Shown here: piece by piece, positions 9,926-57,880 of the stretch
Numbering within the stretch: the first letter of the stretch is position 1
How the letters are laid out: the number at the start of each line of letters is the position of its first letter
Assembly (NCBI GenBank): GCA_022791975.1
Contig: JAAWAC010000014.1
Coordinates: 1 to 64,000 of the forward strand
Source: Lachnospiraceae bacterium
GTDB lineage: Bacteria; Bacillota; Clostridia; Lachnospirales; Lachnospiraceae
Direction: 5' to 3'
DNA: 64,000 bases
The notes under the pieces: model-generated
Told to the model about the DNA's origin: nothing
Database searches by the model: none
The model's input: the letters and a program-made list of their open reading frames with translations, nothing else
Made by a program: the position numbers and the translations under genes

Positions 9926-10795
9926 CTATCCCTTTACAGCTCCGGCAGAAATCCCTTCTGTGAAGTACCGCTGGAAGATAATAAAGATAATTAACATGGG
10001 AATGGCCGTAAAGGTGGCCGTGGCATATCGGAGACCGAAGTCAAACAGGCTCTGATCCGCCGTCCCGGCGCCAGTGGAATTAATAACCCGAGCCAGACCT
10101 ACCACCACCGTGTAGCTCTTGTCGTCACTGGTAGCCATCAGCAGCTGCCACAGATAATTATTCCACACATTAATATAGGAAAGAATGGCCAGAGCTCCCA
10201 GTCCCGGCTTGGATAAAGGAATTCCATGGGTGATAAAAAACCGCAGGCGGCTGCACCCATCCAGCTCCGTGGCCTCGATAATCTCATTGGGGATCTCATC
10301 GTAAAAGTTTTTCAGGAGATATACCCCCATAGGGTATACAATACAAGGCAATATATAGCCCAGATACTTTCCCTGAAGCCCCGCTCCGTACACAAACCGA
10401 TACAGGGGCAGGATATAGATCTCAATGGGAATCAAAAGGCAGGCAATGTTAATGTTAAACAAAAGCTTTCTCCCGGGAAACCGAAGTTTAGAGAGCGCAT
10501 AGGCAGCCATAGAGGACACCACCACAATGCACACCACTGTCACCGTGGTGATAAAAATGCTATTCCACAGCCAACGCCAGGCCGGATACGAGGAAAAAAT
10601 CTTTTCAAAATTTTTCAGGGTCACCCGGGCAGGAATCCAGTCCGGAGGCAACTTCGTAATGTCCGCAGAATACTTGACGGAGCCGGTAAACAGCCAGTAC
10701 AGGGGAAACACGGAGAATATGCAAGCCACGATTACCCCTACATTGAGCACCAGATCAAATTTGGATTGAAACATTCGTTTTTTTCGTCTATGCAT
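9926..10795 (-). CDS. Carbohydrate ABC transporter permease (MalG type)
   Basis: This 289-residue inner-membrane permease has about six hydrophobic segments, the first at residues 17-37. The EAA loop that contacts the ATPase is EATELDGCSRLRFFITHGIP. Together with the adjacent permease and lipoprotein it forms a CUT1-type sugar importer. The operon has no ATPase gene, so it probably shares a MsiK/MsmK-like ATPase encoded elsewhere, as is common in Bacillota. It begins 1 bp after the stop of the upstream permease. Confidence 0.88.
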   Translation of the reverse strand: MHRRKKRMFQSKFDLVLNVGVIVACIFSVFPLYWLFTGSVKYSADITKLPPDWIPARVTLKNFEKIFSSYPAWRWLWNSIFITTVTVVCIVVVSSMAAYALSKLRFPGRKLLFNINIACLLIPIEIYILPLYRFVYGAGLQGKYLGYILPCIVYPMGVYLLKNFYDEIPNEIIEATELDGCSRLRFFITHGIPLSKPGLGALAILSYINVWNNYLWQLLMATSDDKSYTVVVGLARVINSTGAGTADQSLFDFGLRYATATFTAIPMLIIFIIFQRYFTEGISAGAVKG

Positions 10796-10796
10796 A

Positions 10797-11678
10797 TCAA
10801 CTCTCCTTTTTCTCCGTGATAAACCGCAGGGATATTAAAACCAGGGTAACCACAAACATCAGAACCCCCATAGCCGAGGCTAAGCCGATATTATAATTCA
10901 CAAATGCATCCTCATACAACCGGTACATCATGGTACTGGTGGCGTAGTTGGGACCGCCAGAGGTTAAAAGTTGGATCACCACGTATACCTTTAATACCAG
11001 GGAGGTATCAGTAATAAAAACCAGGATTGTGGTGGGTTTCGACAGGGGAATCAATATATAGCGAAACAGGTGCCACCGGTTACCGCCATCCACCCGGCAT
11101 GCGTCCATCAAATCCTTACTGATGCCTATCATCTGCGCCAGATACAGCAACACACACTGACCCAGATTCACAATAATCAGAACAATGATAATAATAATTC
11201 TGGCTGAAGTGGAGCCGGCTAACAAATCCACCGTTCGCACCCCGAAAATATTTGCAAAATATTTAATAAGACCACTCTGGGAATCCAGCATAAACCGCCA
11301 TATGGTTGACATAACTACCATAGACACAATGGTGGGAATGTACAGACATACACGCACGGTGGAGACATAGATGGGGTGCTTATCAAAAATGCTGCCTGCA
11401 ATAAACAGGCCCAGCAATATCAGCAGCGGAACTGCCACCACCACAAACAGCAGGGTGTTGCCGATGGCTTTCAAATAGGTGGGACTGGTAAATATTTCCA
11501 TATAGTTTGCCAACCCTACAAATACCGTTTTTCCTCCCCATTTTGTGTTGTATAAGCTGCGCACAAACTGGTTACAGATGGGATAAACCATAAAGATCGC
11601 ACCGAAAATCACAAATGGCGCCACAAAGCAGTAGGCCTGCAATGCCTCCTTTACGGATCTCCTGCCCTTACTATTCAT
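10797..11678 (-). CDS. Carbohydrate ABC transporter permease (MalF type)
   Basis: This 293-residue CUT1 permease has a hydrophobic first helix (residues 14-35) and an EAA-like loop DACRVDGGNRWHLFRYILIP. It is the first of the two permease genes after the binding protein, separated from it by 127 bp that contain two strong hairpins. It pairs with the MalG-type protein to form the membrane channel. Confidence 0.88.
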   Translation of the reverse strand: MNSKGRRSVKEALQAYCFVAPFVIFGAIFMVYPICNQFVRSLYNTKWGGKTVFVGLANYMEIFTSPTYLKAIGNTLLFVVVAVPLLILLGLFIAGSIFDKHPIYVSTVRVCLYIPTIVSMVVMSTIWRFMLDSQSGLIKYFANIFGVRTVDLLAGSTSARIIIIIVLIIVNLGQCVLLYLAQMIGISKDLMDACRVDGGNRWHLFRYILIPLSKPTTILVFITDTSLVLKVYVVIQLLTSGGPNYATSTMMYRLYEDAFVNYNIGLASAMGVLMFVVTLVLISLRFITEKKES

Positions 11679-36407: not shown

Positions 36408-37457
36408 TCATGTGGTAAGAAAGCTCTCTATGGTTCTCTTAAATCCCTGCTCCAGGGTATATTGGGGGTTCCAGCCCAGCTCTTCTAGTTTTTTAATGGA
36501 AAATCGGCTCTGCCGTTTATTGGGGTCCTCCAGATACACCGTATCATGATTTGCGTACCGGACCTTAAGGTTTCTCTCCGGATATAAGCCAGCCACAAGC
36601 TCTGCCAGCCCCCGGATAGAAATCTGGCATTCTGGATTGGCCACGTTGTAGACCTCTCCTGGTTTTCCCTCCAGAAGTACCTTAAAGTAGGCTAGGGCAG
36701 CATCATAAAGGTAGCAGAAGGTGCGAACCCCCAAACCGTCACTTTTCATTACCAGGTCCTCCCTGCGGATCACGTTGGATACAAAGCCGGCAAATACCCG
36801 AAAGTCCCGCTCCAAATCCATGGTGGGGCCATAGGTATGACAGGGACGGACCACCTTGGCCGCTACCTGATGCTGATGGTTGTAGGCTTTGCAGAGATTC
36901 TCCCCCAGCCGCTTGCTCTCTCCATAGCAGCTCCTAACGTCCATGGGATTTAAATAACCGCAGTCCTCCTCCTCAATAATCTCTTTTTCTAGCTTTCCAT
37001 AAATTTCCCCACTGCTAAAATATAGATACCCCCTGCAATTTTTTTCTCTGGCCAGCTCCAACGTCTGACGGGTGCCTAAGACATTGGGCATAATCACCCC
37101 TACCGGATTTGTTCCAAAATACTGAGAGCCAGAAGGGCTGGCCCCATGGATAATATAGTCCAGATCTCCCTCCATAGAAATTTCCTCAGTCACATCTCTT
37201 ATAAGCAGGTGAAAGTATTCTTTTTGGGAATATTTTCCAAATTTATCCAGTGCTGTCTGCCGGTTTCGACATAAAGCTTTGATCTGGATTTGGTAATCCT
37301 GATATTCGTTGAGATAGATCAGCATCCATATTAGGTAGGAGGGCAGCATACCACAGGCTCCCGTTATGAGGATGCTGGTGTTTTGAAGACGAGACCAGGG
37401 GATGATGGGTTCTTTGAATAAGCTTTTGCAATCTTCTAAAATAATTTTGTTTGTCAT
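36408..37457 (-). CDS. NAD-dependent sugar epimerase/dehydratase
   Basis: This 349-residue extended SDR has the NAD motif ILITGACGMLPSYL (GxxGxxx, with the third Gly replaced) and the active-site YGESK with an upstream FSSGEIYG. It most likely modifies an NDP-sugar for the island's glycan, as an epimerase or decarboxylase; the exact reaction is not readable. It lies 15 bp after the stop of the upstream GT2 gene. Confidence 0.82.
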   Translation of the reverse strand: MTNKIILEDCKSLFKEPIIPWSRLQNTSILITGACGMLPSYLIWMLIYLNEYQDYQIQIKALCRNRQTALDKFGKYSQKEYFHLLIRDVTEEISMEGDLDYIIHGASPSGSQYFGTNPVGVIMPNVLGTRQTLELAREKNCRGYLYFSSGEIYGKLEKEIIEEEDCGYLNPMDVRSCYGESKRLGENLCKAYNHQHQVAAKVVRPCHTYGPTMDLERDFRVFAGFVSNVIRREDLVMKSDGLGVRTFCYLYDAALAYFKVLLEGKPGEVYNVANPECQISIRGLAELVAGLYPERNLKVRYANHDTVYLEDPNKRQSRFSIKKLEELGWNPQYTLEQGFKRTIESFLTT

Positions 37458-46992: not shown

Positions 46993-48276
46993 TTACTTAA
47001 TACAGGAAAATATCCTTTCTCCATCTGTTTTTATATCTTTTATATCATGTATCTTAGAATCTTCTCCGTCATCCTTCAGCAAATATGTTAACAAAAGTGG
47101 CACTTCTCTCTCTTCAATGACACTTCCCTTTTGTCTCACCCAATTTAATATAGCCTCTGTGTTTTCATTATATAATTTATAAATTGTCTCTCTATATTGG
47201 CTTTCATTCACTTTTGTATGTATATAGAAAGCAACATTTGTCTGGTAATCAAATACCATTAAAGGAGCATCAGCTATATCTGATGCATAGATAATTTTGG
47301 GTCCATATATAAAACTGGATTGATATCTTCCCGGTCCCCATTTCATAATTTCTGTATATTCATGCAATTTCGTATTAAGCTGGACATTTCCAGTTTCGAT
47401 ATTAACAGCAACAAATTCCTGTGCTAAAAACGGAGCCAAAACTAAAAATTGTTCTATCACATCCACAACCATATACATTGGCTCTTTGATTTCTTTCCAC
47501 TCTATATTCAAAGCTATTTCTTTTTTTTCAAAGGTATCCTTATTTATTAATAAAACAGACTTATTTTTGCCCCTTGATAAAAAAATCATCCACTCCTTAT
47601 AGGTTCTTACAAAACCAAGTTTTTTTTCATTATCTTTCCACAATATAAATCTGAATTTTTCCGTTCTGGTATTAAAAATCACCAATTCTTCACTGTCATA
47701 CGGATAAAACCATATGTCATCCCCAACCAAACATGCATCTGCAAAATTAATTTTTCCGTCTTTAAATGCCACTCTATCTCTTAATTCTGAATACTCTATA
47801 ACTTGATTTGTCAACATATCTACCCGCAAAAACATATTATAGCCTAAGGGTACAAGCCAAAATTCCGAACTTCCGTTTTTATAACAACATTTAAACTCCC
47901 ATGTGATATTTCCTTTGTTATCCCTAATAGGCTCTCCATTTTCAGGCAAGTGAATAACAACCTTTTCTAATGTTTTTATATTAATTTTGACTATATCTTT
48001 CCCTGCGTGCGTTGGGATCATCCAAATAGCATCTTCAAAAAAAATTGCTTGGTTATGCAGATACCTGCTTTTAATCTCATTTTCAAAAATATCTAAAAAT
48101 TCACAAATTCCAGTCTTTAAATCCATTTTGTAAAATCCATTTGATAGCCATGAAGAAAAATATAACTCGTCTCCTACGATACATCCAGCTAAAAATGAAA
48201 TTCTACTTCCATAAATATTTTCATTTATAATGCCTTGATTACTCAGTTTTTTTAACTGCATTTTTTGCCACTCCAT
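46993..48276 (-). CDS. Unrecognised beta-propeller-like protein
   Basis: This 427-residue protein is of no family I recognise. It shows repeated blocks of the kind GDELYFSSWLSNGFYKMDLKTG, DAIWMIPTHAGKDIVKINIKT, DDIWFYPYDSEELVIFNTRT, about 50-60 residues apart, each ending in an N-x-x-T-like turn. This is what a six- or seven-bladed beta-propeller looks like. No signal peptide or membrane segment, so probably cytoplasmic. It could be a scaffold or binding protein for the glycan enzymes. It lies 50 bp from the WecF-like gene. Confidence 0.6.
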   Translation of the reverse strand: MEWQKMQLKKLSNQGIINENIYGSRISFLAGCIVGDELYFSSWLSNGFYKMDLKTGICEFLDIFENEIKSRYLHNQAIFFEDAIWMIPTHAGKDIVKINIKTLEKVVIHLPENGEPIRDNKGNITWEFKCCYKNGSSEFWLVPLGYNMFLRVDMLTNQVIEYSELRDRVAFKDGKINFADACLVGDDIWFYPYDSEELVIFNTRTEKFRFILWKDNEKKLGFVRTYKEWMIFLSRGKNKSVLLINKDTFEKKEIALNIEWKEIKEPMYMVVDVIEQFLVLAPFLAQEFVAVNIETGNVQLNTKLHEYTEIMKWGPGRYQSSFIYGPKIIYASDIADAPLMVFDYQTNVAFYIHTKVNESQYRETIYKLYNENTEAILNWVRQKGSVIEEREVPLLLTYLLKDDGEDSKIHDIKDIKTDGERIFSCIK

Positions 48277-48413: not shown

Positions 48414-49619
48414 TCAATTCCAAATTTTTCTAGTCAGCCTCTCCCTTAAATCATACCCATCCCAAACAAATCCAAACTCCATGGTCTCCCCGATCTTCAC
48501 CACCCGGTCTATCCCCTTTACTCCGGATTCAGCCAACGGTAAAACCTTCATTTCATCTCCCAAAACCGCTATAGTCTGCAGCTTCTCATTGCAAATCGGA
48601 ACCAACTCCATGATATCCCCAAGCTCATACTCATAGAAGACTCCTGAGTTCCCCCGATATTCCTGTATCCGAGGAGTCATCTTCTCCAATTCTATTCGTA
48701 CAATCCGGTTATCCTTCATCCGAATCACATGGATTCCCTCTATCGTTGCCGCCGCAAGGCAGCTGTTTGTCAGCTTATCCACATATTGTATCGGTCGGAA
48801 TGTATACTTTTTCTCCACTGTACCCCAGAACTTCTCCCAGAAAATTTCTTTCGCCTCTTCTATCCTTTCGTGCTCTCCCATCCAGCAGACCAGTCTCGGC
48901 GAAGTACAGGCATTTTGATCTGTAAAATAGGTGTCATTATAGAAATCTAGTGCAAGCCTCTCTTTGTCTTTTATATTCAAATATTCCTCCGCATCTACGA
49001 TACAGATGGAATACCGATCCGCAAAGGTAATCTCGCCTGCTCTCGGCGGAAGCTCTGACTTCCGAATCTCCTCTATAGCGGCATCTCCTCCCCAGATTAC
49101 CCTTACATTACAAATGGAAGAAAAATAATCATTGATCTCCTTATTCCTCGCATACCGCAGAAAGACTATGTAATCGCTCCACTTCTTATAAACTTCCTCT
49201 TGCCCCAAGGCTTCCGATATGGCCCGGTTAATCAGCTCCGTCTGCCGGAATTCCCTGGATGGCAGCCGCACAATGCTCGCATTTCCCAGTACAAATCCAA
49301 CTGCAAAGGAATAGGCATAATTCACTGCCACATTTGACGGCGCGATGTGAAATAGCACTCCACGCCCCATTCGAAGCCTGTGATCGGAAAGAAATTCTCT
49401 CTTTTCTTTCTCCATATTTGCTCTTCTTATCCAGAAAGCGAAAGTTGCCACATCTGAATACGTCTTTGCCTCTTTATCTGACAGCAGCCTTTTGGACACT
49501 TCATTTAAAAAGGCAATCCGCTCCTCCTCAAAGGGTTTGCCCGCAGGAAGCTTTGGCATTTTTTCCACAATCTTTTCGTCGCCTATATGAAATTGAAGCT
49601 CCTTAAAATTTAGCTCCAT
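48414..49619 (-). CDS. luxC: LuxC-type acyl-CoA/acyl-protein reductase
   Basis: This ~401-residue protein is of the LuxC family (PF05893), which reduces an activated acyl group to an aldehyde with NADPH. The nucleophilic Cys lies in TDQNACTSPR. It is directly downstream of LuxE with a 17-bp overlap if the ATG at 49619 is used (the track ORF starts 30 bp earlier). In luminous bacteria the pair makes fatty aldehyde for luciferase; no luciferase is here. In this glycan island it more likely makes an aldehyde for transfer or transamination. The 137 bp after the stop hold no gene. Confidence 0.85.
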   Translation of the reverse strand: MELNFKELQFHIGDEKIVEKMPKLPAGKPFEEERIAFLNEVSKRLLSDKEAKTYSDVATFAFWIRRANMEKEKREFLSDHRLRMGRGVLFHIAPSNVAVNYAYSFAVGFVLGNASIVRLPSREFRQTELINRAISEALGQEEVYKKWSDYIVFLRYARNKEINDYFSSICNVRVIWGGDAAIEEIRKSELPPRAGEITFADRYSICIVDAEEYLNIKDKERLALDFYNDTYFTDQNACTSPRLVCWMGEHERIEEAKEIFWEKFWGTVEKKYTFRPIQYVDKLTNSCLAAATIEGIHVIRMKDNRIVRIELEKMTPRIQEYRGNSGVFYEYELGDIMELVPICNEKLQTIAVLGDEMKVLPLAESGVKGIDRVVKIGETMEFGFVWDGYDLRERLTRKIWN

Positions 49620-50697
49620 AGGTATCGCTGCACCCCCTGATTTCTGCATTTTTCAGTCTTCCATGTACAGAGAAATACTTTCCCTTTCTTCCGCAGGGAC
49701 AATCATCCTCTCCCAGAAGCACTCCTTCGTCCTCTGTCAAAAGAGAATGCCCCGGATAGGATTCCGGAATAGCCGACACCACTTGAAGGATTCCTTTTTC
49801 CCCCATCCTACAGACTGAAAAGTCCTCCGGACGTCGGACGATCACATCAGAAAAAATACTGGCATGAAAATGTCCGTATTCACACTGCATATAGATACAC
49901 CCTGTCTGCTCTACCATTCCGTAATAGTCGTAAATCTTATGCAAACCGCACGCTTCCTGCAAGCTGCCGCGAAACTCTTGACAGGAAATAGCTTCCCCTT
50001 TAAGCTTCTTCCAGCCTCCTCCGTGAATGAGGATTCCATTCGACAAATCCCATACAATCCCTTTCTGCCTGAACTTTTTAAACTCCTTATAAAAATGCTG
50101 CCAAATCATAAAGGTAAAGCCGAAGAGAAAGATCTGCTCTCCCTTGTGCCTCTCTAAAAAGGCGCTGACCCCTTCTACATCTAACTGCATCTCATCATTC
50201 AAAGCGTATAGTTTATCTCTTCCAAAGATGGAGAATCCCAGTATCCCTGCTCCTCTGGCGCTGAACATAGCCCTGTTTTTTATAACGGAGGGACAGTCGA
50301 TAATCAGCATGGGCATACGGGCGCTTCCTGTAAAGGAGGACACCAGTTTAACCAAAGTTTTCTGCTGATAGCCTGCCGTCTTTCGATCCACATAGATGCG
50401 AGACACACGCTGGCCGCTGGTTCCGGAGGATGTCATGGTTTTTACAACCTCCTCCTTCGGAACACTTCGCAGTTCCATCTCCTTAAACAGGCGGACCGGA
50501 AGGAAGGGAAGCTCATAATAGGATTCTGTCTTACCGATTTCTATCCCAAAGGCATCCACGATTCTTTTGTATGTCTCACACGTCTCATAGTGCTGTTCAG
50601 ATAGGCTTATCAGCCTTCTGCTTAAAAGCTCCTGCTTTTTCTCTTTTTCAAGGGAATAAGGCTCCAGCTCCAGCATAGCTTCATAATTTTGTTCCAT
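49603..50697 (-). CDS. luxE: LuxE-type acyl-protein synthetase
   Basis: This 364-residue adenylate-forming enzyme of the LuxE family (PF04443) activates a carboxylic acid with ATP and passes it to LuxC. The ATP loop is TSSGTSGQRVSRIYVD. The Cys-rich C-terminal part (CPCGRKGKYFSVHGRL) and a Cys close to the end (GCSDTYG) resemble the acyl-acceptor region of the family. It lies 16 bp after the acyl-ligase gene and overlaps luxC. Confidence 0.85.
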   Translation of the reverse strand: MEQNYEAMLELEPYSLEKEKKQELLSRRLISLSEQHYETCETYKRIVDAFGIEIGKTESYYELPFLPVRLFKEMELRSVPKEEVVKTMTSSGTSGQRVSRIYVDRKTAGYQQKTLVKLVSSFTGSARMPMLIIDCPSVIKNRAMFSARGAGILGFSIFGRDKLYALNDEMQLDVEGVSAFLERHKGEQIFLFGFTFMIWQHFYKEFKKFRQKGIVWDLSNGILIHGGGWKKLKGEAISCQEFRGSLQEACGLHKIYDYYGMVEQTGCIYMQCEYGHFHASIFSDVIVRRPEDFSVCRMGEKGILQVVSAIPESYPGHSLLTEDEGVLLGEDDCPCGRKGKYFSVHGRLKNAEIRGCSDTYGAKF

Positions 50698-50713
50698 TCT
50701 CCTGTTTTTCCTG

Positions 50714-52126
50714 CTATTCTTCTATATATTTTCCAAATTCTTGATACAACACCTTTCCGGAAGCGTTTCTCGGTATTTCTGGAATTACATGGACTGCAAA
50801 AGCAATGCTGTTAAGTCCTGTTTTTTGAGAAAGAAAGGCTCGGATGTCCTCTTTTAAGCCTTCCTCTGTAATAAAAAGGACCAGCTTATCATCCCGACCA
50901 GCGCTGGCACAATCTATATTTCCAAACTCAGCTTTTACCAGTCGATCCACCCCATCCAGATTTACCCGATTTCCGAATATTTTTAAGAAGCGCTTCTTTC
51001 TTCCCACAATATAATAATATCCGTCCGAATCAAACCGGGCCATGTCTCCTGTTTCCAGGCGACCGTGTCTTTCATCCCCTTTTGCCAGATCCTCCCCGCA
51101 TTCGGCATATCCGAGAGTAACATTGGGTCCCTCATACACCAGCTCCCCTGCCGTATCGGGCTGCCGAATTTCGTTTCCGTCTGCATCTATAACAGAGAAA
51201 CGACCGCCCGGTATGGCAATCCCCATACTTCCATATTTTCCCAGAGACTTATCATAGGGAAGATAGGACATTCTTGCAGTGGCCTCTGCCTGGCCGTACA
51301 TAACGTAAAAACGTTTCCCTTTCTTTTGTGCATACTCCGCAAATCTTTTATGCAACTCCGGCTGCAGCTTTCCCCCTGCCTGTGTCATGCTTCTAAGGGA
51401 AGGAAGATCCATGCGGTAAAACCGCAGTTTGTCCAGCATTTCGTATGTATACGGGACTCCTCCAAAGGAAGTGGCTTCCACTTCTCTGAAAAATCTCCAG
51501 AATTCTTTCTGCATCAAACCTTTCTCTGTGAATAAAATGGTGGCGCCTACCAGCAAATGACTGTTGATAATTGACAAACCATAGGTATAATTCATAGGAA
51601 GCGTGGTAATGGGCCGCTCTGTCTCATTCAATTCCAGATACTGCACGATTGACTGAGCATTTGATACTACATTCTCATAACTTTGGCGTACCAGCTTGGG
51701 GCTTCCGGTGGAACCAGATGTTGTCAAAAGCAGACACAATTTCTCGTTCAGTCTGTATACTCTCTGATATTCCGTTTTTAGGAGAACATATGCAAAAACT
51801 TCATACTCCACAGAATAATTTTCAAACGCATTCCGAAGTTTTACAGGTACCCACAAGTAGTCCGGCTGATAAGTTTTGATTAACTGCTCCAATAAATCTT
51901 TGTCCATATCTTCTGCAAGTAACAAGGGAACCACGTGATGGTTGATACATGTGGTATAGCCTATCAAAGCACCTATGGTATTGGAGCATAATATAAATGT
52001 AAGACAACGTTCTTTTAATCTTTCTACAAGCCTACAATTTTCAAGGAATAATTCGTGATAACTTATTTGATTTTTATGTTCATCCACAGCGGCTATGCTG
52101 TCCGCATATTCCTCAAACCTCCACAT
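50714..52126 (-). CDS. AMP-binding acyl ligase (ANL superfamily)
   Basis: This 470-residue adenylate-forming enzyme has the P-loop LLTTSGSTGSPKLV, the YGQAEATARMSY core, the LETGDMARFDSDGYYYIVGR hinge and the C-terminal Lys in RNASGKVLYQEF. It probably loads a carboxylic acid on the ACP encoded 28 bp upstream. Together with LuxE there are two acid-activating enzymes in tandem, which is unusual. The substrate is unknown. Confidence 0.85.
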   Translation of the reverse strand: MWRFEEYADSIAAVDEHKNQISYHELFLENCRLVERLKERCLTFILCSNTIGALIGYTTCINHHVVPLLLAEDMDKDLLEQLIKTYQPDYLWVPVKLRNAFENYSVEYEVFAYVLLKTEYQRVYRLNEKLCLLLTTSGSTGSPKLVRQSYENVVSNAQSIVQYLELNETERPITTLPMNYTYGLSIINSHLLVGATILFTEKGLMQKEFWRFFREVEATSFGGVPYTYEMLDKLRFYRMDLPSLRSMTQAGGKLQPELHKRFAEYAQKKGKRFYVMYGQAEATARMSYLPYDKSLGKYGSMGIAIPGGRFSVIDADGNEIRQPDTAGELVYEGPNVTLGYAECGEDLAKGDERHGRLETGDMARFDSDGYYYIVGRKKRFLKIFGNRVNLDGVDRLVKAEFGNIDCASAGRDDKLVLFITEEGLKEDIRAFLSQKTGLNSIAFAVHVIPEIPRNASGKVLYQEFGKYIEE

Positions 52127-52154
52127 ATTCTATTCTCCATATGTTTTATTGCAC

Positions 52155-52394
52155 TCAAAATTCCACACCATAGTTGGCAGATAAAATTTCTTTTCCCTTT
52201 TCAAAAGAGCTGAAATCAATGATATCCTCTGTGTCCATCATCAAGTCGAACTTATCTTCTAATGCTGCGATCAAGCTCATATGACCTACAGAATCCCACA
52301 GGGGAATTGCCTGATATTCTAAACCTTCCAGTTTCGACTCTTCAATCTCTAAAGTTTCCATAAAAACTTTATTGTACTTTTCTAAATTTGTCAT
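52155..52394 (-). CDS. Acyl carrier protein
   Basis: This 79-residue ACP has the phosphopantetheine Ser in WDSVGHMSLI (DSxxH variant of DSL) and a typical acidic profile. The ATG at 52394 has GAGGTGAG 5 bases upstream; the track's GTG start adds only MSF. It lies between the SDR and the acyl ligase, so it is a dedicated carrier and not the fatty-acid-synthase ACP. AT-rich. Confidence 0.85.
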   Translation of the reverse strand: MTNLEKYNKVFMETLEIEESKLEGLEYQAIPLWDSVGHMSLIAALEDKFDLMMDTEDIIDFSSFEKGKEILSANYGVEF

Positions 52395-52427
52395 AAAACT
52401 CACCTCAATTTATTTTAGAATTCATAA

Positions 52428-53174
52428 CTATACTACAGCCGCCCCATCAACCCCTATAATTTGCCCCGTAATATACCTTGCATAATCTGACGCAAGCATC
52501 ACGCAAGCATCCGCAACCTCTCCAGGTGTCCCTAAACGTCCCATTCCTATCCTATCCAAATGTTCCTGAATGTGAACCTCTCCAATTGAATGAAACATAT
52601 CTGTGTCAATCATTCCTGGTGCCACCGCATTTACTCGAATATGATATGGTGCCAGTTCTTTAGACGCAGTTTTTGTCATACTGATAACAGCCCCTTTAGA
52701 CGCAGAGTACACTATCTGACCCTTATTGCCTTGTACTCCCACAATCGATGAAAAATTAATAATACTGCCTGAATTATTCTTTTTCATTATCCTAGCAGCA
52801 TATTGTAAAAGCTCCATCGAAGCAAACACATTTGTCTCAAAAATATCTCGCATAAGCTCTTTGGAAGCCATTCCTATTAAAGCATCCTTCATAATTCCTG
52901 CATTATTAACAAGAACATCCAACCGTCCTTGTTCTTTTTGAATCTTGAGCATTACATTCTTTAAAGAAGTTGTATCTCTGATGTCAAAATATACTGGCAC
53001 TACTGCTGCTCCATATGTCTTTTTTAAACCCTGAACTTGTTCATCAATACTTCCCTCTTGCCTTGCATTGGCATAAACAATGGCCCTTTCCCGTGAAAAA
53101 CTTTCAAGCAAGGCTGCACCTATTCCTCTGTTTGTCCCTGTAATTAAACAAACCTTATTTTTCAACAGATCCAT
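52428..53174 (-). CDS. FabG-like SDR (3-oxoacyl-ACP reductase type)
   Basis: This 248-residue short-chain dehydrogenase has TGTNRGIG, NNAG, Ser in NFSSIVG and the YSASK motif. It is close in pattern to FabG; next to an ACP it may reduce a beta-keto or other carbonyl on the carrier. The ATG at 53174 has AGAGGA 6 bases upstream and is preferred over the overlapping ATG at 53189. Alternatively it acts on a sugar. Confidence 0.83.
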   Translation of the reverse strand: MDLLKNKVCLITGTNRGIGAALLESFSRERAIVYANARQEGSIDEQVQGLKKTYGAAVVPVYFDIRDTTSLKNVMLKIQKEQGRLDVLVNNAGIMKDALIGMASKELMRDIFETNVFASMELLQYAARIMKKNNSGSIINFSSIVGVQGNKGQIVYSASKGAVISMTKTASKELAPYHIRVNAVAPGMIDTDMFHSIGEVHIQEHLDRIGMGRLGTPGEVADACVMLASDYARYITGQIIGVDGAAVV

Positions 53175-53188
53175 TTTCAATCCTCTCA

Positions 53189-53833
53189 TTACCGAAAAAC
53201 TTTTGTTCCATTCTTATACTTCATTACCCTTGCTGGATTCCCTAGCGCAATTACATTTTCCGGAATATCTCTTAAAACTGTAGAGCCCATACCAATAATC
53301 GAATTTTTCCCTATCTTAATTCCTTCCTTTACTGAAACATTCATACCAATATATGTGCCTTCCCCCACCTCACAATGGCCTCCAAGAGTAGCATTTGGTG
53401 CAATTTGACAATTCCGCCGAATAATACAATCATGCCCCACTATCGTTCCCGGCTCAATACATGTATTTTCTTCTATCAATGTGTCACTGGAAATAAAAGA
53501 TTGTGCATGAACAATAAGCCCTTCCTCCAGATTCGCAGATGGGCTTATCCAGGCCATAGGGTGCAAAACTTTAGCAAGTGGATACTCTTTTTCTTTCACC
53601 TTATGGCATAACGCTATTTTGTGCTCTGGTTCTCCCAATGCAATCACTATTTCTGCGGTATCCTTATCATAAATTTGCACAAAACTTTTAAAAGGCATTC
53701 TTTCTATACCTTTAAATACCCCTACTTCTACCATATCATCTATAAATACAATTTTTTCCCAAATATTTTGCTGCTCAGCAATCTCCCTTACCTCACATCC
53801 TGAACCACCGGACCCATAAATTCCCAAAATCAT
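53189..53833 (-). CDS. NeuD-family acyltransferase
   Basis: This 214-residue protein has an N-terminal nucleotide-binding-like domain (ILGIYGSGGSGCEVREIA) and C-terminal hexapeptide repeats (ANLEEGLIVHAQSFIS, HCEVGEGTYIG). NeuD/PglD-type enzymes transfer acetyl from acetyl-CoA to an amino- or hydroxyl-sugar. With the DegT aminotransferase next door, N-acylation of an aminosugar is the simplest role. The acyl donor could instead be the ACP-bound group. AT-rich. Confidence 0.82.
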   Translation of the reverse strand: MILGIYGSGGSGCEVREIAEQQNIWEKIVFIDDMVEVGVFKGIERMPFKSFVQIYDKDTAEIVIALGEPEHKIALCHKVKEKEYPLAKVLHPMAWISPSANLEEGLIVHAQSFISSDTLIEENTCIEPGTIVGHDCIIRRNCQIAPNATLGGHCEVGEGTYIGMNVSVKEGIKIGKNSIIGMGSTVLRDIPENVIALGNPARVMKYKNGTKVFR

Positions 53834-53907: not shown

Positions 53908-55017
53908 TCAATATGCGCAAATTATTTTCGCAATTTCCGATACATTGTCTACCCACAACCCTTCATACACCGGCAATGCCAGAACCTGCTTCGCCAACCT
54001 TCGTGCGTCTCCAAGCCCCACATCCCGATACTTATTCTTAAAACAAGCCTGGTCCGAAGTCAGTGGATAAAAATACTTCCTGGTATATATTTGCTGCTCC
54101 TTAAGCCTCTCATACAGCTCATCCCTGCTCAATGGATATGCATCTTCTATCAATATAGGAAAATATCCATAATTGCGCTTTACTTCTTGCTTTATCTCAA
54201 ACAAGCGAATCCCCGAAACATCCCTCAGCCCTTTTTCATATTCCTCACACAAAGCCTTTCTCTGGGCAACGGACTCCTCCACATGGTCCAAATTGCAGAG
54301 TCCCATGATTGCACAGAATTCATTCATCTTCCCGTTGGCTCCAACCGCTGTCACCAGCTCTTCCCCGCGAATCCCAAAATTCTTTAAATTGTAAAGCTTA
54401 TCGTAAAGCTTTGCATCGGGAAAGGCTACTGCTCCCCCTTCAATGGTATGAAACACCTTGGTAGCATGAAAGCTAAACACGGAGGCATCCCCATAGCTTC
54501 CAATGCCTTTTCCTTTAAACGAAACCCCGAAAGCATGGGCCGCATCATAAATCACCTTAAGCCCATACTTATCTGCAATTCGCTGAATCTCCTCCACATT
54601 GCACACATTCCCATACACATGCACAGGCAGGATCGCCGCCGTTCGTTCTGTAATCAGCTCCTCGATCTTTGTCTCATCGATGGTCCCGTCCTCAGGCTTC
54701 ACATCACAAAACACCGGTTTTAAATGATTCCGCACAATCGCATGGGTGGTAGAAATAAAAGTAAAAGGTGTGGTAATTACCTCCGCGCCCTCCGGAAATC
54801 CCATGGCCTGGATAGTCAGCTCCAGCGCCATATGTCCATTGACCATTAATGACAGCCATGGCACATCCAAATACTCCCTTAAATTCTTTTCCAGCTCCTG
54901 ATGGTACTTGCCCATATTGGTCAGCCAATGGCTATCCCACAAAGGCTTGATGGCTTCTATGTATTCCTCATAGGACGGCATAGAGGATCGTGTCACAAAT
55001 ATTTTCTCCTTATCCAT
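53908..55017 (-). CDS. DegT/DnrJ/EryC1-family aminotransferase
   Basis: This 369-residue PLP enzyme typically aminates a keto-sugar nucleotide. The PLP Lys lies in SFHATKVFHTIEGG and the Asp in IYDAAHAFG. Its tail QIYTRKYFYPLTSDQ resembles enzymes of the dTDP-3- or 4-amino-sugar group. It starts 7 bp after the CDP-glycerol-transferase-like gene. It could supply the aminosugar for the WecF-like enzyme, or aminate the aldehyde from LuxC; the second is speculation. Confidence 0.88.
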   Translation of the reverse strand: MDKEKIFVTRSSMPSYEEYIEAIKPLWDSHWLTNMGKYHQELEKNLREYLDVPWLSLMVNGHMALELTIQAMGFPEGAEVITTPFTFISTTHAIVRNHLKPVFCDVKPEDGTIDETKIEELITERTAAILPVHVYGNVCNVEEIQRIADKYGLKVIYDAAHAFGVSFKGKGIGSYGDASVFSFHATKVFHTIEGGAVAFPDAKLYDKLYNLKNFGIRGEELVTAVGANGKMNEFCAIMGLCNLDHVEESVAQRKALCEEYEKGLRDVSGIRLFEIKQEVKRNYGYFPILIEDAYPLSRDELYERLKEQQIYTRKYFYPLTSDQACFKNKYRDVGLGDARRLAKQVLALPVYEGLWVDNVSEIAKIICAY

Positions 55018-55024
55018 ATTCCCT

Positions 55025-56320
55025 TCACTCCACCTCTATATCCTGTACCATGACTGGTTTCCCCGTCTCCTGGTACAACCTCACCAGAGAGCTCCAATCC
55101 CCATAATAAGCGTCGCTAAATCCCATCGCCGGATACATATCTGGCCCATCATCGTAAATCCCATTCCCATTCTCAATAAACCACTTCTTCACCCTCTTAT
55201 ACCGCTCATATAGCTCTGGCCGCATGGAAGAAAAAGTCGCCTCCATTAAAGGATGCGGCCGCCAAAGCAACACCGCGTCCTCCCTTTTTGCAAAAAAATG
55301 AAACACCCGCTCAAGCTTCCCCAGATAGGCCTCGCTCTCGTTAAGCATCCCGCCCAGGCTGGTATTATACAAAATAACTTTCTTTCCCTCTGCCTTTCTT
55401 CTCCACTCCTTTGGCACCTCCACGTCCCCCTGGCTTGCCGCCCGCACCTTATCAAACTTCGGGGAACCCAGAGGAAGCAGCTTGGACGAAATGTCCACCT
55501 GGGGAAAATGCTTCTTAAAATGCTGAATGTACTGCTCCTTCTCACTCTCATTCTGCACAATCACATAGTCCGCATTCCAGACCCCTTTAGCCAGAGCCAT
55601 TCCCTCCGGAACACTTTCTCCAGCGCAGACAAAGTAGGGAATATACACCAGTTTTTCTGTAAATTTCTTTAAATTTTCCGAATAAAAATATGGGTGAACG
55701 CTGGTCACATAATTCCCGTCGTCATAAGGGTTATGAATAAACACCATATCTGGCCGCCGCAGCTCAAAATTGTATGAACCATAATCTGTCACTTCCACTT
55801 CATCCGGAAACAGCTCTCCCTCATGGTGCACTTCTCCAAAGCTCAGATCCGGCTTCCTGTCATAATAGGGAATGGGAATCACATACACATCTGCCTCCTC
55901 ATCCTCTCCAGCTGCCTTCCAAACACTCTCCAGAGAATCCCACATGGAAGCTTTATAGGGAAGGAAAACCACCTCCAGCCTGTCTGGCACATCCCGCCCC
56001 AGTTGACGGCGGATACGTCCCAACTGCTGTTTCAGCTCCTTTACCTGCCCTCTGCGGGCGGATGGATCTTGCAAAGCCAAAGTTAGTTGATACAAACTCT
56101 CACAAAAAAGCTCCAACTCTTTTACCGTGCTGGTTCCCTCTCCATACAAACTTTCTATCGTGGTTCCCACCTGGATAGCCGCCTCCTGGCTGTCTGCCAA
56201 AAGTTTCATAATCTCTGGCTCATTCACAGAATTTTTCAACAAGGCCTTTTCCAGCACCTTGTGAGCTCCTTCCAGGAGATCTATCGTGGAAAATAATTGT
56301 TTTCTCACAGTACGGCTCAT
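55025..56320 (-). CDS. CDP-glycerol glycerophosphotransferase-like protein
   Basis: This 431-residue protein has an N-terminal helical stretch of about 100 residues. The remainder resembles the TagF/TagB group: VFLPYKASMWDSLESVW, YVIVQNESEKEQYI, VILYNTSLGG and the active-site-like LLWRPHPLMEAT. The family moves polyol phosphate from a CDP donor, which fits the two cytidylyltransferase-like genes upstream. The ATG at 56320 has AGAGGGG 8 bases upstream; the track start is 21 codons earlier. Confidence 0.75.
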   Translation of the reverse strand: MSRTVRKQLFSTIDLLEGAHKVLEKALLKNSVNEPEIMKLLADSQEAAIQVGTTIESLYGEGTSTVKELELFCESLYQLTLALQDPSARRGQVKELKQQLGRIRRQLGRDVPDRLEVVFLPYKASMWDSLESVWKAAGEDEEADVYVIPIPYYDRKPDLSFGEVHHEGELFPDEVEVTDYGSYNFELRRPDMVFIHNPYDDGNYVTSVHPYFYSENLKKFTEKLVYIPYFVCAGESVPEGMALAKGVWNADYVIVQNESEKEQYIQHFKKHFPQVDISSKLLPLGSPKFDKVRAASQGDVEVPKEWRRKAEGKKVILYNTSLGGMLNESEAYLGKLERVFHFFAKREDAVLLWRPHPLMEATFSSMRPELYERYKRVKKWFIENGNGIYDDGPDMYPAMGFSDAYYGDWSSLVRLYQETGKPVMVQDIEVE

Positions 56321-56400
56321 ACTCTCTGCCCCTCTCTGATAATCATCTCCAATAGCTATTGCCACTGGCGACTCTCCATCCACCTTTCAGATATTCCAGC

Positions 56401-57117
56401 TTATTCCCGAATCCATTCTGCCTTCCTGGAATTCAGCAAGGCCTCAAAAATCTCCAGATCCGCCACGGACGTCAGCTTAATATTTTTCTCCGACCCCAGA
56501 CAAAAGTACAGCTGATGGCCCAACTCAATCAACAGAGTACAAGTGGCCACCGTATTGGTGATCCCCCTCTTTAACGCCTCCTCATGAGCTCGCACCAGGG
56601 TTCCCACAGACGCACATTGCGGAGTCTGGGTAATCTTTAAATTATCCCGGGAAATCTGCATCTTAGAGGAGCTCCCATCCTCCGTACACAGCATGGCAGA
56701 GGTACACTGAACCACGGAAATGGCGTTTCCGTACTGCCCGGCCACCCGAATACAGTCCGAGATAATTTCCTCCGAAACCATAGGCCGTATGGCATCATGT
56801 ATCAAAATCAGGTCCTCCTCCTCATGGCGGGAGGCAATGTCATACACCCCACCCCGAATGGAATCCTGGCCGTTTGCACCGCCGGGAACAATATTCTCCA
56901 GCTTTGTTATGCCAAAGGTTCTGCAATAGGCCGCCAAAATCTGATCCCAGCCCTCCACACAAACCACCACAATCCCATCAATGCAGGGATGATTTTGAAA
57001 AGCCTCCAGGGTATAGATAATCACCGGCTTGTCATAGACATTGATAAATTGCTTGGGAATATCCTGGTGCATCCGCTGTCCCGAGCCTCCTGCTATAATC
57101 AGCGCTATATTTTTCAC
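56401..57117 (-). CDS. IspD-family cytidylyltransferase (copy 1)
   Basis: This 238-residue protein is of the IspD/TarI family, which makes CDP-alditols. The nucleotide loop is intact (IAGGSGQRMHQDIPKQF), as are HDAIRPMV and TQTPQ. The downstream TDD-type metal motif is replaced (NTVATCTLLIELG). I choose the GTG at 57117 with GGAGG 8 bases upstream; no ATG fits. Location in a glycan island makes a CDP-ribitol- or CDP-glycerol-type product more likely than isoprenoid synthesis. Confidence 0.8.
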   Translation of the reverse strand: MKNIALIIAGGSGQRMHQDIPKQFINVYDKPVIIYTLEAFQNHPCIDGIVVVCVEGWDQILAAYCRTFGITKLENIVPGGANGQDSIRGGVYDIASRHEEEDLILIHDAIRPMVSEEIISDCIRVAGQYGNAISVVQCTSAMLCTEDGSSSKMQISRDNLKITQTPQCASVGTLVRAHEEALKRGITNTVATCTLLIELGHQLYFCLGSEKNIKLTSVADLEIFEALLNSRKAEWIRE

Positions 57118-57187
57118 CCTCGGCACCTCCAACTTCTCTCACATCCTGCCACATGCACGAAAAAACAAAAGAGACGAATCGCCCAAT

Positions 57188-57880
57188 CTACATCATACGA
57201 TAGAGCGCCTTAAACATCTCCACATCCTCCAAGGCATTTACCTTGATATTAAAATCCGAGCCCTTGGAAAAATAGACCGTCTCCCCCATGCGGGCCAGCA
57301 AACTATTATTATCCATACAATGGATAATTCCCTTTTCAATGGCCTCCCGGTGCATCCGCTCCAGATAATCCAGCCGGTAGGATTGAGGTGTCTGAATTCT
57401 CCGAATGCTGTATCTGGAAATACTTTCCTTCCCACTGCAACCGTCCTCTGTCATCATCACCGTATCGGTAGAACGCACAGCCGCCACACCCATTCCCTTT
57501 TTTCGGCAAGTCCGGATGCTGTCTGAAATTAAATCCTGCGTAACCAACGGACGAATAGCATCATGCACCACAACCACATCATCCGGCCTACCGTGCTTTG
57601 CCAGCCACTGAATTCCTCTCCAGCTGGACTCCTGCCCGTCAGCTCCACCCTCTACAATGGCTGTCAGCTTTGTAATATCAAACTGCTTGGCATAAGCCTT
57701 TACCATCTCCTGCCAGCCTGGCAAACAGGAGACGATCACCTGGTCAATCTCTACATGCTGTTGAAAAGCCTGTAGGGTATATACAATCACAGGCCGATTC
57801 TCCACAATTACAAACTGCTTGGGAATATCCATCTGAAACTGTGGATCCAAACCGGCTGCCAATATCAATCCTATATTCAT
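57188..57880 (-). CDS. IspD-family protein with degenerate nucleotide loop (copy 2)
   Basis: This ~230-residue paralogue of the next gene keeps PKQF, HDAIRPLV and IQTPQSY, but the GxGxR nucleotide loop is changed to AAGLDPQFQMDIPKQ, without the catalytic Arg. It retains an Asp in CMDNNSLLARMG, where copy 1 has lost it. It may be inactive, or function only with copy 1. The ATG at 57880 has GGAAG 6 bases upstream. First gene of the island. Confidence 0.75.
   Translation of the reverse strand: MNIGLILAAGLDPQFQMDIPKQFVIVENRPVIVYTLQAFQQHVEIDQVIVSCLPGWQEMVKAYAKQFDITKLTAIVEGGADGQESSWRGIQWLAKHGRPDDVVVVHDAIRPLVTQDLISDSIRTCRKKGMGVAAVRSTDTVMMTEDGCSGKESISRYSIRRIQTPQSYRLDYLERMHREAIEKGIIHCMDNNSLLARMGETVYFSKGSDFNIKVNALEDVEMFKALYRMM

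Follow-up and report, generated by a model that had tools for sequence, protein, structure and literature searches.

Two adjacent genes of a Lachnospiraceae bacterium encode members of the IspD/TarI family (PF01128), one of them with a rebuilt nucleotide loop, and we propose that their products work as one heteromeric alditol- or ketose-phosphate cytidylyltransferase in which the first protein (A) is catalytic and the second (B) is a re-purposed pseudo-subunit. We put the probability of this reading at roughly 55%. IspD and TarI are standard examples of homodimeric enzymes, the former being a target for drugs and herbicides. The genes lie within the window, the stretch of 64,000 nucleotides that we analysed (contig 40 of a fragmented assembly with 66 contigs and 87% completeness). 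As the original prediction had it, two IspD-like genes stand side by side: they are in tandem on the minus strand with B upstream and A next, and each matches PF01128 with an E value of about 1e-34 (Table 1).

Table 1. Coordinates of the gene pair, its active-site positions and neighbouring genes in the window.
Feature	Position	Strand	Evidence or remark
Copy 2 (B), IspD-like, remodelled nucleotide loop	57188-57880	minus	PF01128 E 1e-34; ATG start common to homologues; ORF open to 57910
Copy 1 (A), IspD-like, intact nucleotide loop	56401-57117	minus	PF01128 E 3.1e-34; likely GTG start; ORF open to 57132 (TTG)
B loop LAAGLDPQFQMDIPK	57818-57862	minus	Asp22 for loop Gly, Gln24 for loop Arg, Phe25 for Met
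B Asp200, second Asp of TDD (B. subtilis D186)	57311-57313	minus	Present in 34/34 B
B Asn225 at B. subtilis Thr211 position (partner of loop Arg)	57236-57238	minus	Asn in 34/34 B
A nucleotide loop AGGSGQRMHQDIPK, intact	57052-57093	minus	Alignment
A Ala196 at TDD Asp position	56545-56547	minus	Alignment
CDP-glycerol:glycerophosphotransferase-like (PF04464), probable user of the CDP product	55025-56383	minus	Profile match
DegT/DnrJ aminotransferase	53908-55017	minus	Profile match
PglD-like hexapeptide acyltransferase	53189-53833	minus	Profile match
Classical SDR oxidoreductase	52428-53189	minus	Profile match
LuxC, LuxE and AMP-ligase-like genes, same run	48414-52126	minus	Profile match
Extended SDR	36408-37457	minus	Best solved relatives C. 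jejuni HS5.17 (8v4g/8v4h, CDP-6-D-glucitol synthase)

The match of A to the PF01128 profile is full length (residues 9–234), and a motif check against the IspD/TarI family found its GxGxR loop, PK, HDxxRP, arm Arg and NIKxT all present. Both proteins scored below the cut-offs of the NCBIfam IspD equivalog TIGR00453 (163.9 bits for A and 151.9 for B; cut-off 181.3) and of the TarI (ribitol-5-phosphate) model NF001183 (133.9 and 125.4 bits; cut-off 166). Elsewhere the same genome encodes a stronger, housekeeping-type IspD (C57, 201 bits) and, away from the pair, a third and distant homologue. Because a separate, stronger IspD exists and both copies miss the IspD cut-off, an isoprenoid role for A or B is disfavoured. 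A PADLOC search gave no result.

We compared active-site residues using the numbering of B. subtilis IspD, unless a window protein or E. coli is named. A retains G13, R15, K22, S86, D104, R107, R152, T160, K209 and T211 and has Ala at D186, so that the motifs first read from this copy, a kept GSGQR (G18 and R20 in A's own numbering) and a missing TDD-type Asp, are both seen. In window B, positions 13, 15, 16 and 211 are Asp, Gln, Phe and Asn, respectively, and D186 and the remaining site residues are retained; here too the absent loop Arg and the kept Asp had been read correctly, and the loop Gly is replaced as well. G13D, M16F, T211N and D186 occur in every one of 34 distinct B sequences; position 15 varies, with Arg in 18 and Asn, Gly, Ser, Lys, Gln or a further residue in the rest. 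Of the two strictly conserved loop residues expected of an active PF01128 cytidylyltransferase, the Gly is therefore gone from all 34 and the Arg from 16. K22, D104, R107 and K209 are retained in B together with Ser or Thr at position 86, as are the arm residues R152 (33 of 34) and T160 (all 34), and both copies of the window pair keep Arg152 and Thr160. Position 211 is Thr in every non-B protein compared, and T211N is one change on the tree. The pattern is not a chance one, since B orthologues share it with the exception of the loop Arg position.

In B. subtilis IspD with CTP, the triphosphate is held by the backbone amides of residues 13–15 and by the side chain of R15, which also bonds T211 (PMC5099578); Gly18 and Arg20 of E. 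coli IspD, which are the same positions as 13 and 15, are described as strictly conserved across all IspD homologues (PMC11770629). From this published role and conservation we infer that B would be unable to bind the CTP triphosphate in the usual manner. Its loop has been remodelled and has not decayed: a new signature that is fixed, with a single position left free, resembles that of a re-purposed pocket.

Using B as the query, we scanned 84,980 species genomes and obtained 33 loci with B orthologues (53–79% identity), all in Lachnospiraceae or loosely labelled Clostridia. A B profile separated its hits cleanly (above 410 bits, the next match at 301 bits), and in this search B occurred in a small minority of Lachnospiraceae species. 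Directly downstream of every B gene found, at these loci and in the further genomes examined alike, lies an A-type gene on the same strand, with a median gap of about 25 nucleotides and an overlap in 5 of the 33. The reverse also held: a profile of canonical A gave at least 434 bits in 4 of 397 genomes of the family, all with an adjacent B, and 348 bits for the next match, so that in that search the dedicated A clade always came with B. The single exception to obligate co-occurrence is a truncated A. At this locus (L081, a metagenome-assembled genome (MAG); 10696-11025) an intact B is followed by an A cut to about 110 codons and then directly by a PF04464-like gene, which is either a real deletion or an assembly error.

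Both genes are under purifying selection with equal constraint (median dN/dS 0.078 for B in 17 pairs and 0.0775 for A in 8 pairs). A pseudogene in relatives, which the original prediction had named as the outcome that would refute it, was looked for and not found, and is ruled out by dN/dS and the open frames. Drift at the loop Arg position might suggest that B is an inert or purely stabilising remnant of a tandem duplication that is slowly being lost, but the low dN/dS, the fixed B-specific residues, the open frames and a gene order kept at 33 loci already disfavour this, and we regard it as very improbable.

In the phylogeny, B forms one clade (support 100/100; 34 distinct sequences), and canonical A and B together form another (100/95), as expected from a single tandem duplication. 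Window A falls outside canonical A and, with five relatives, inside a solo-type clade; the A of a further locus, L082, falls elsewhere within that clade. A constraint holding all A together was rejected (AU p 2.4e-53). Together with these two placements, the rejection means that solo-type enzymes have taken the place of the A partner at least twice, with B remaining each time.

Paralogues that look functional, are not pseudogenes and are inherited as a pair are most economically read as a heteromer. The linkage could instead reflect two steps of one pathway and not one complex, and because the solo relatives of A presumably function without B, A may not need it. In the main rival to our reading, B would be an enzyme in its own right, a homodimer whose chemistry is new or whose substrate differs, which acts before or after A and is linked to it by the shared pathway only. 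Residues D13, F16, N211 and D186, fixed in all 34 sequences, are as expected of a working rather than a dead site, the retention of K22, D104, R107, K209 and Ser or Thr at 86 agrees with this, and A's own arm is unrelaxed (see below). However, B was never seen without an A neighbour, nor canonical A without B; the other pathway genes vary between loci while B–A is constant; and the swap of A for another IspD homologue in the same place favours a structural partner. On balance we think a separate enzyme unlikely, if still a serious competitor.

We also followed the history of the TDD Asp. None of the 54 canonical A, replaced A and close solo proteins in the comparison has it, nor has any of the 7 Y-type solo proteins; most outgroups do, and the distribution needs three changes on the tree. 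By parsimony, its loss probably preceded the origin of the pair, and B later regained it. Because solo relatives are also without it, A's Asp was not lost after pairing, and because all compared A and solo proteins lack it, A needs no Asp restored. The complementary motif loss proposed at the outset is thus borne out only by half, since close solo relatives equally lack the Asp. The heterodimer with shared active sites divides in a similar way: the paired inheritance of functional-looking paralogues speaks for the heterodimer, and the complementation of the two named motifs falls away. One composite site that takes its nucleotide loop from A and its TDD Asp from B is improbable, even though in all pairs, without exception, the intact loop Gly and Thr211 are found in one gene and the Asp in the other. 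Against it, the partnerless solo relatives are likewise without the Asp. In AtIspD, moreover, Asp261/262 lie at the MEP pocket, near the active site and its allosteric pocket (PMC11770629), from which position Asp262 would place the B residue at B's own site and not at A's. The TDD Asp would then belong to the same subunit as the loop and hence be no cross-subunit element.

The element that crosses the IspD dimer is the beta-arm. An AlphaFold2 model of B from 20 sequences (pLDDT 75, pTM 0.77; beta-arm and C terminus unsure) had TarI and IspD as its top PDB hits in Foldseek (6xhq, 5hs2; probability 1.00), and B is accordingly predicted to retain the IspD fold. We also folded the L088 B–A pair as one chain with an artificial linker, an in-frame read-through with stops read as Gly. 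This model, from 4 paired rows and without a homodimer control, reached a pTM of 0.48, with arms around or under 50 pLDDT and the halves placed without confidence. Across canonical pairs the arm of A was more conserved than that of B (mean entropy 0.74 vs 1.01). A pure model in which B donates its arm to A, with only A's site live, predicts a relaxed A arm; the opposite sign was seen. An unrelaxed A arm leaves room for a role of the site formed by the A arm and the B pocket, or for A homodimers alongside.

In the simplest form of the proposed heteromer, A and B would make a dimer built as the IspD homodimer is. A would bind CTP and carry out the chemistry, and the product, destined for a surface or flagellin glycan, would be an alditol or ketose phosphate activated with CDP; for the wider clade this would likely be CDP-6-fructose en route to CDP-glucitol or CDP-mannitol. 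B would retain the fold together with those beta-arm residues that come from the partner in an IspD dimer; with a rebuilt triphosphate loop of its own, it is probably not a cytidylyltransferase. Because the replacement residues are fixed, the pocket of B probably serves some function, and might bind a ligand (product, substrate or regulator) or tune the specificity of A. We advance more tentatively a stronger version: that A:B is an obligate enzyme and the first heteromer in the IspD/TarI family, and that the pocket of B (D13, F16, N211 and D186) has become a new site, for ligand binding or catalysis, which determines the CDP-alditol that A makes, and that B can be kept while A is exchanged for another paralogue.

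Genomic context bears on the product. The PF04464 family is present at 22 of 34 pair loci, mostly directly downstream, vs 1 of 20 solo loci (Fisher p 1.2e-5, a guide only as related loci are not independent). Pair loci are often near flagellin and TPR-glycosyltransferase genes, and their context is that of flagellin glycosylation or surface-glycan islands. An extended SDR is nearby at 16 of 20 loci of A's solo relatives. For the two SDRs that we checked, that of the window and one beside the L078 pair, the best PDB match was HS5.17, which works with the PF01128 fructose-6-phosphate cytidylyltransferase HS5.18 (PMC10918830). These neighbours point to a CDP-alditol or CDP-ketose as the likely product class. 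In the window island, the DegT, PglD-like, SDR, AMP-ligase, LuxE and LuxC genes may serve to make an additional moiety. The LuxC, LuxE, AMP-ligase and SDR genes form one run (48414-53189) with an 82-amino-acid acyl-carrier-like protein (about 52158-52403, by eye), which suggests that the glycan is decorated with an acid after its activation and reduction. At two loci (L075 at 11728 and L076 at 11564) the PF04464-like transferase adjoining the pair has a long extra fused C-terminal region, and that of L076 resembles the window protein at 46993-48276 (by eye).

The pair shares with IspD and TarI homodimers the fold (from the model of B), the base pocket, HDxxRP, Lys22, Lys209 and the arm Arg152; it differs in that B breaks the positions of E. 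coli Gly18 and Arg20 and the loop-Arg partner Thr211, and A is without the TDD Asp. HS5.18 of C. jejuni HS:5 and Mnp1 of S. pneumoniae 35A, fructose-6-phosphate cytidylyltransferases that act with the SDRs HS5.17 and Mnp2, show the same pairing of PF01128 with an extended SDR as A's solo relatives (PMC10918830). They are likened to A by family and gene context, but are described as single cytidylyltransferases without a remodelled second PF01128 partner. The C. difficile type A flagellin modification locus (CD0240–CD0244) resembles the pair loci in being an island linked to flagellin and in having a predicted cytidylyltransferase along with a transferase that forms phosphodiesters, but has one cytidylyltransferase gene (CD0242), with phosphothreonine as its proposed substrate and without a described remodelled twin (PMC10714395). 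In GMPPA/GMPPB, an inactive paralogue binds the product and regulates the active NTP transferase (PMC11228364). The likeness to A:B is one of working logic only, a catalytic subunit with a non-catalytic paralogue; GMPPA/GMPPB is a eukaryotic GDP-mannose system from another nucleotidyltransferase subfamily. We found no report of a paired IspD form, or of one with a pseudo-subunit or inactive partner, in the open-access literature, the scope of our search. A conserved natural pair with partner exchange on two occasions offers a system for studying how a dimeric nucleotidyltransferase turns heteromeric and what a remodelled site does, and the pair points to a route by which gut Lachnospiraceae could decorate flagellin or surface glycans with unusual phospho-alditols.

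Tandem IspD-like pairs at two other loci, L094 and L160, were set aside as being without the B signature. That of L094 (9307-10732, a Prevotellaceae MAG) comprises two different IspD-like genes, both apparently intact, with an HS5.17-like SDR after them. Active-site loss of the opposite kind to B was seen at L158 (G049:C3, 6486-7178) and L159 (G044:C2, 810-1601), where IspD-like proteins have an intact GxGxR loop and have lost HDxxRP (HYGASP and SFGVSP); their genes adjoin LicC/LicA-like fusion genes (by eye). Also at L159 (1-663, minus strand), an ORF cut by the contig end fuses an HTH region (XRE-like, by eye) to a degenerate IspD-like domain, AGGKSVRNHKSIPNQF, in which HD has become QE, perhaps a ligand-sensing regulator.
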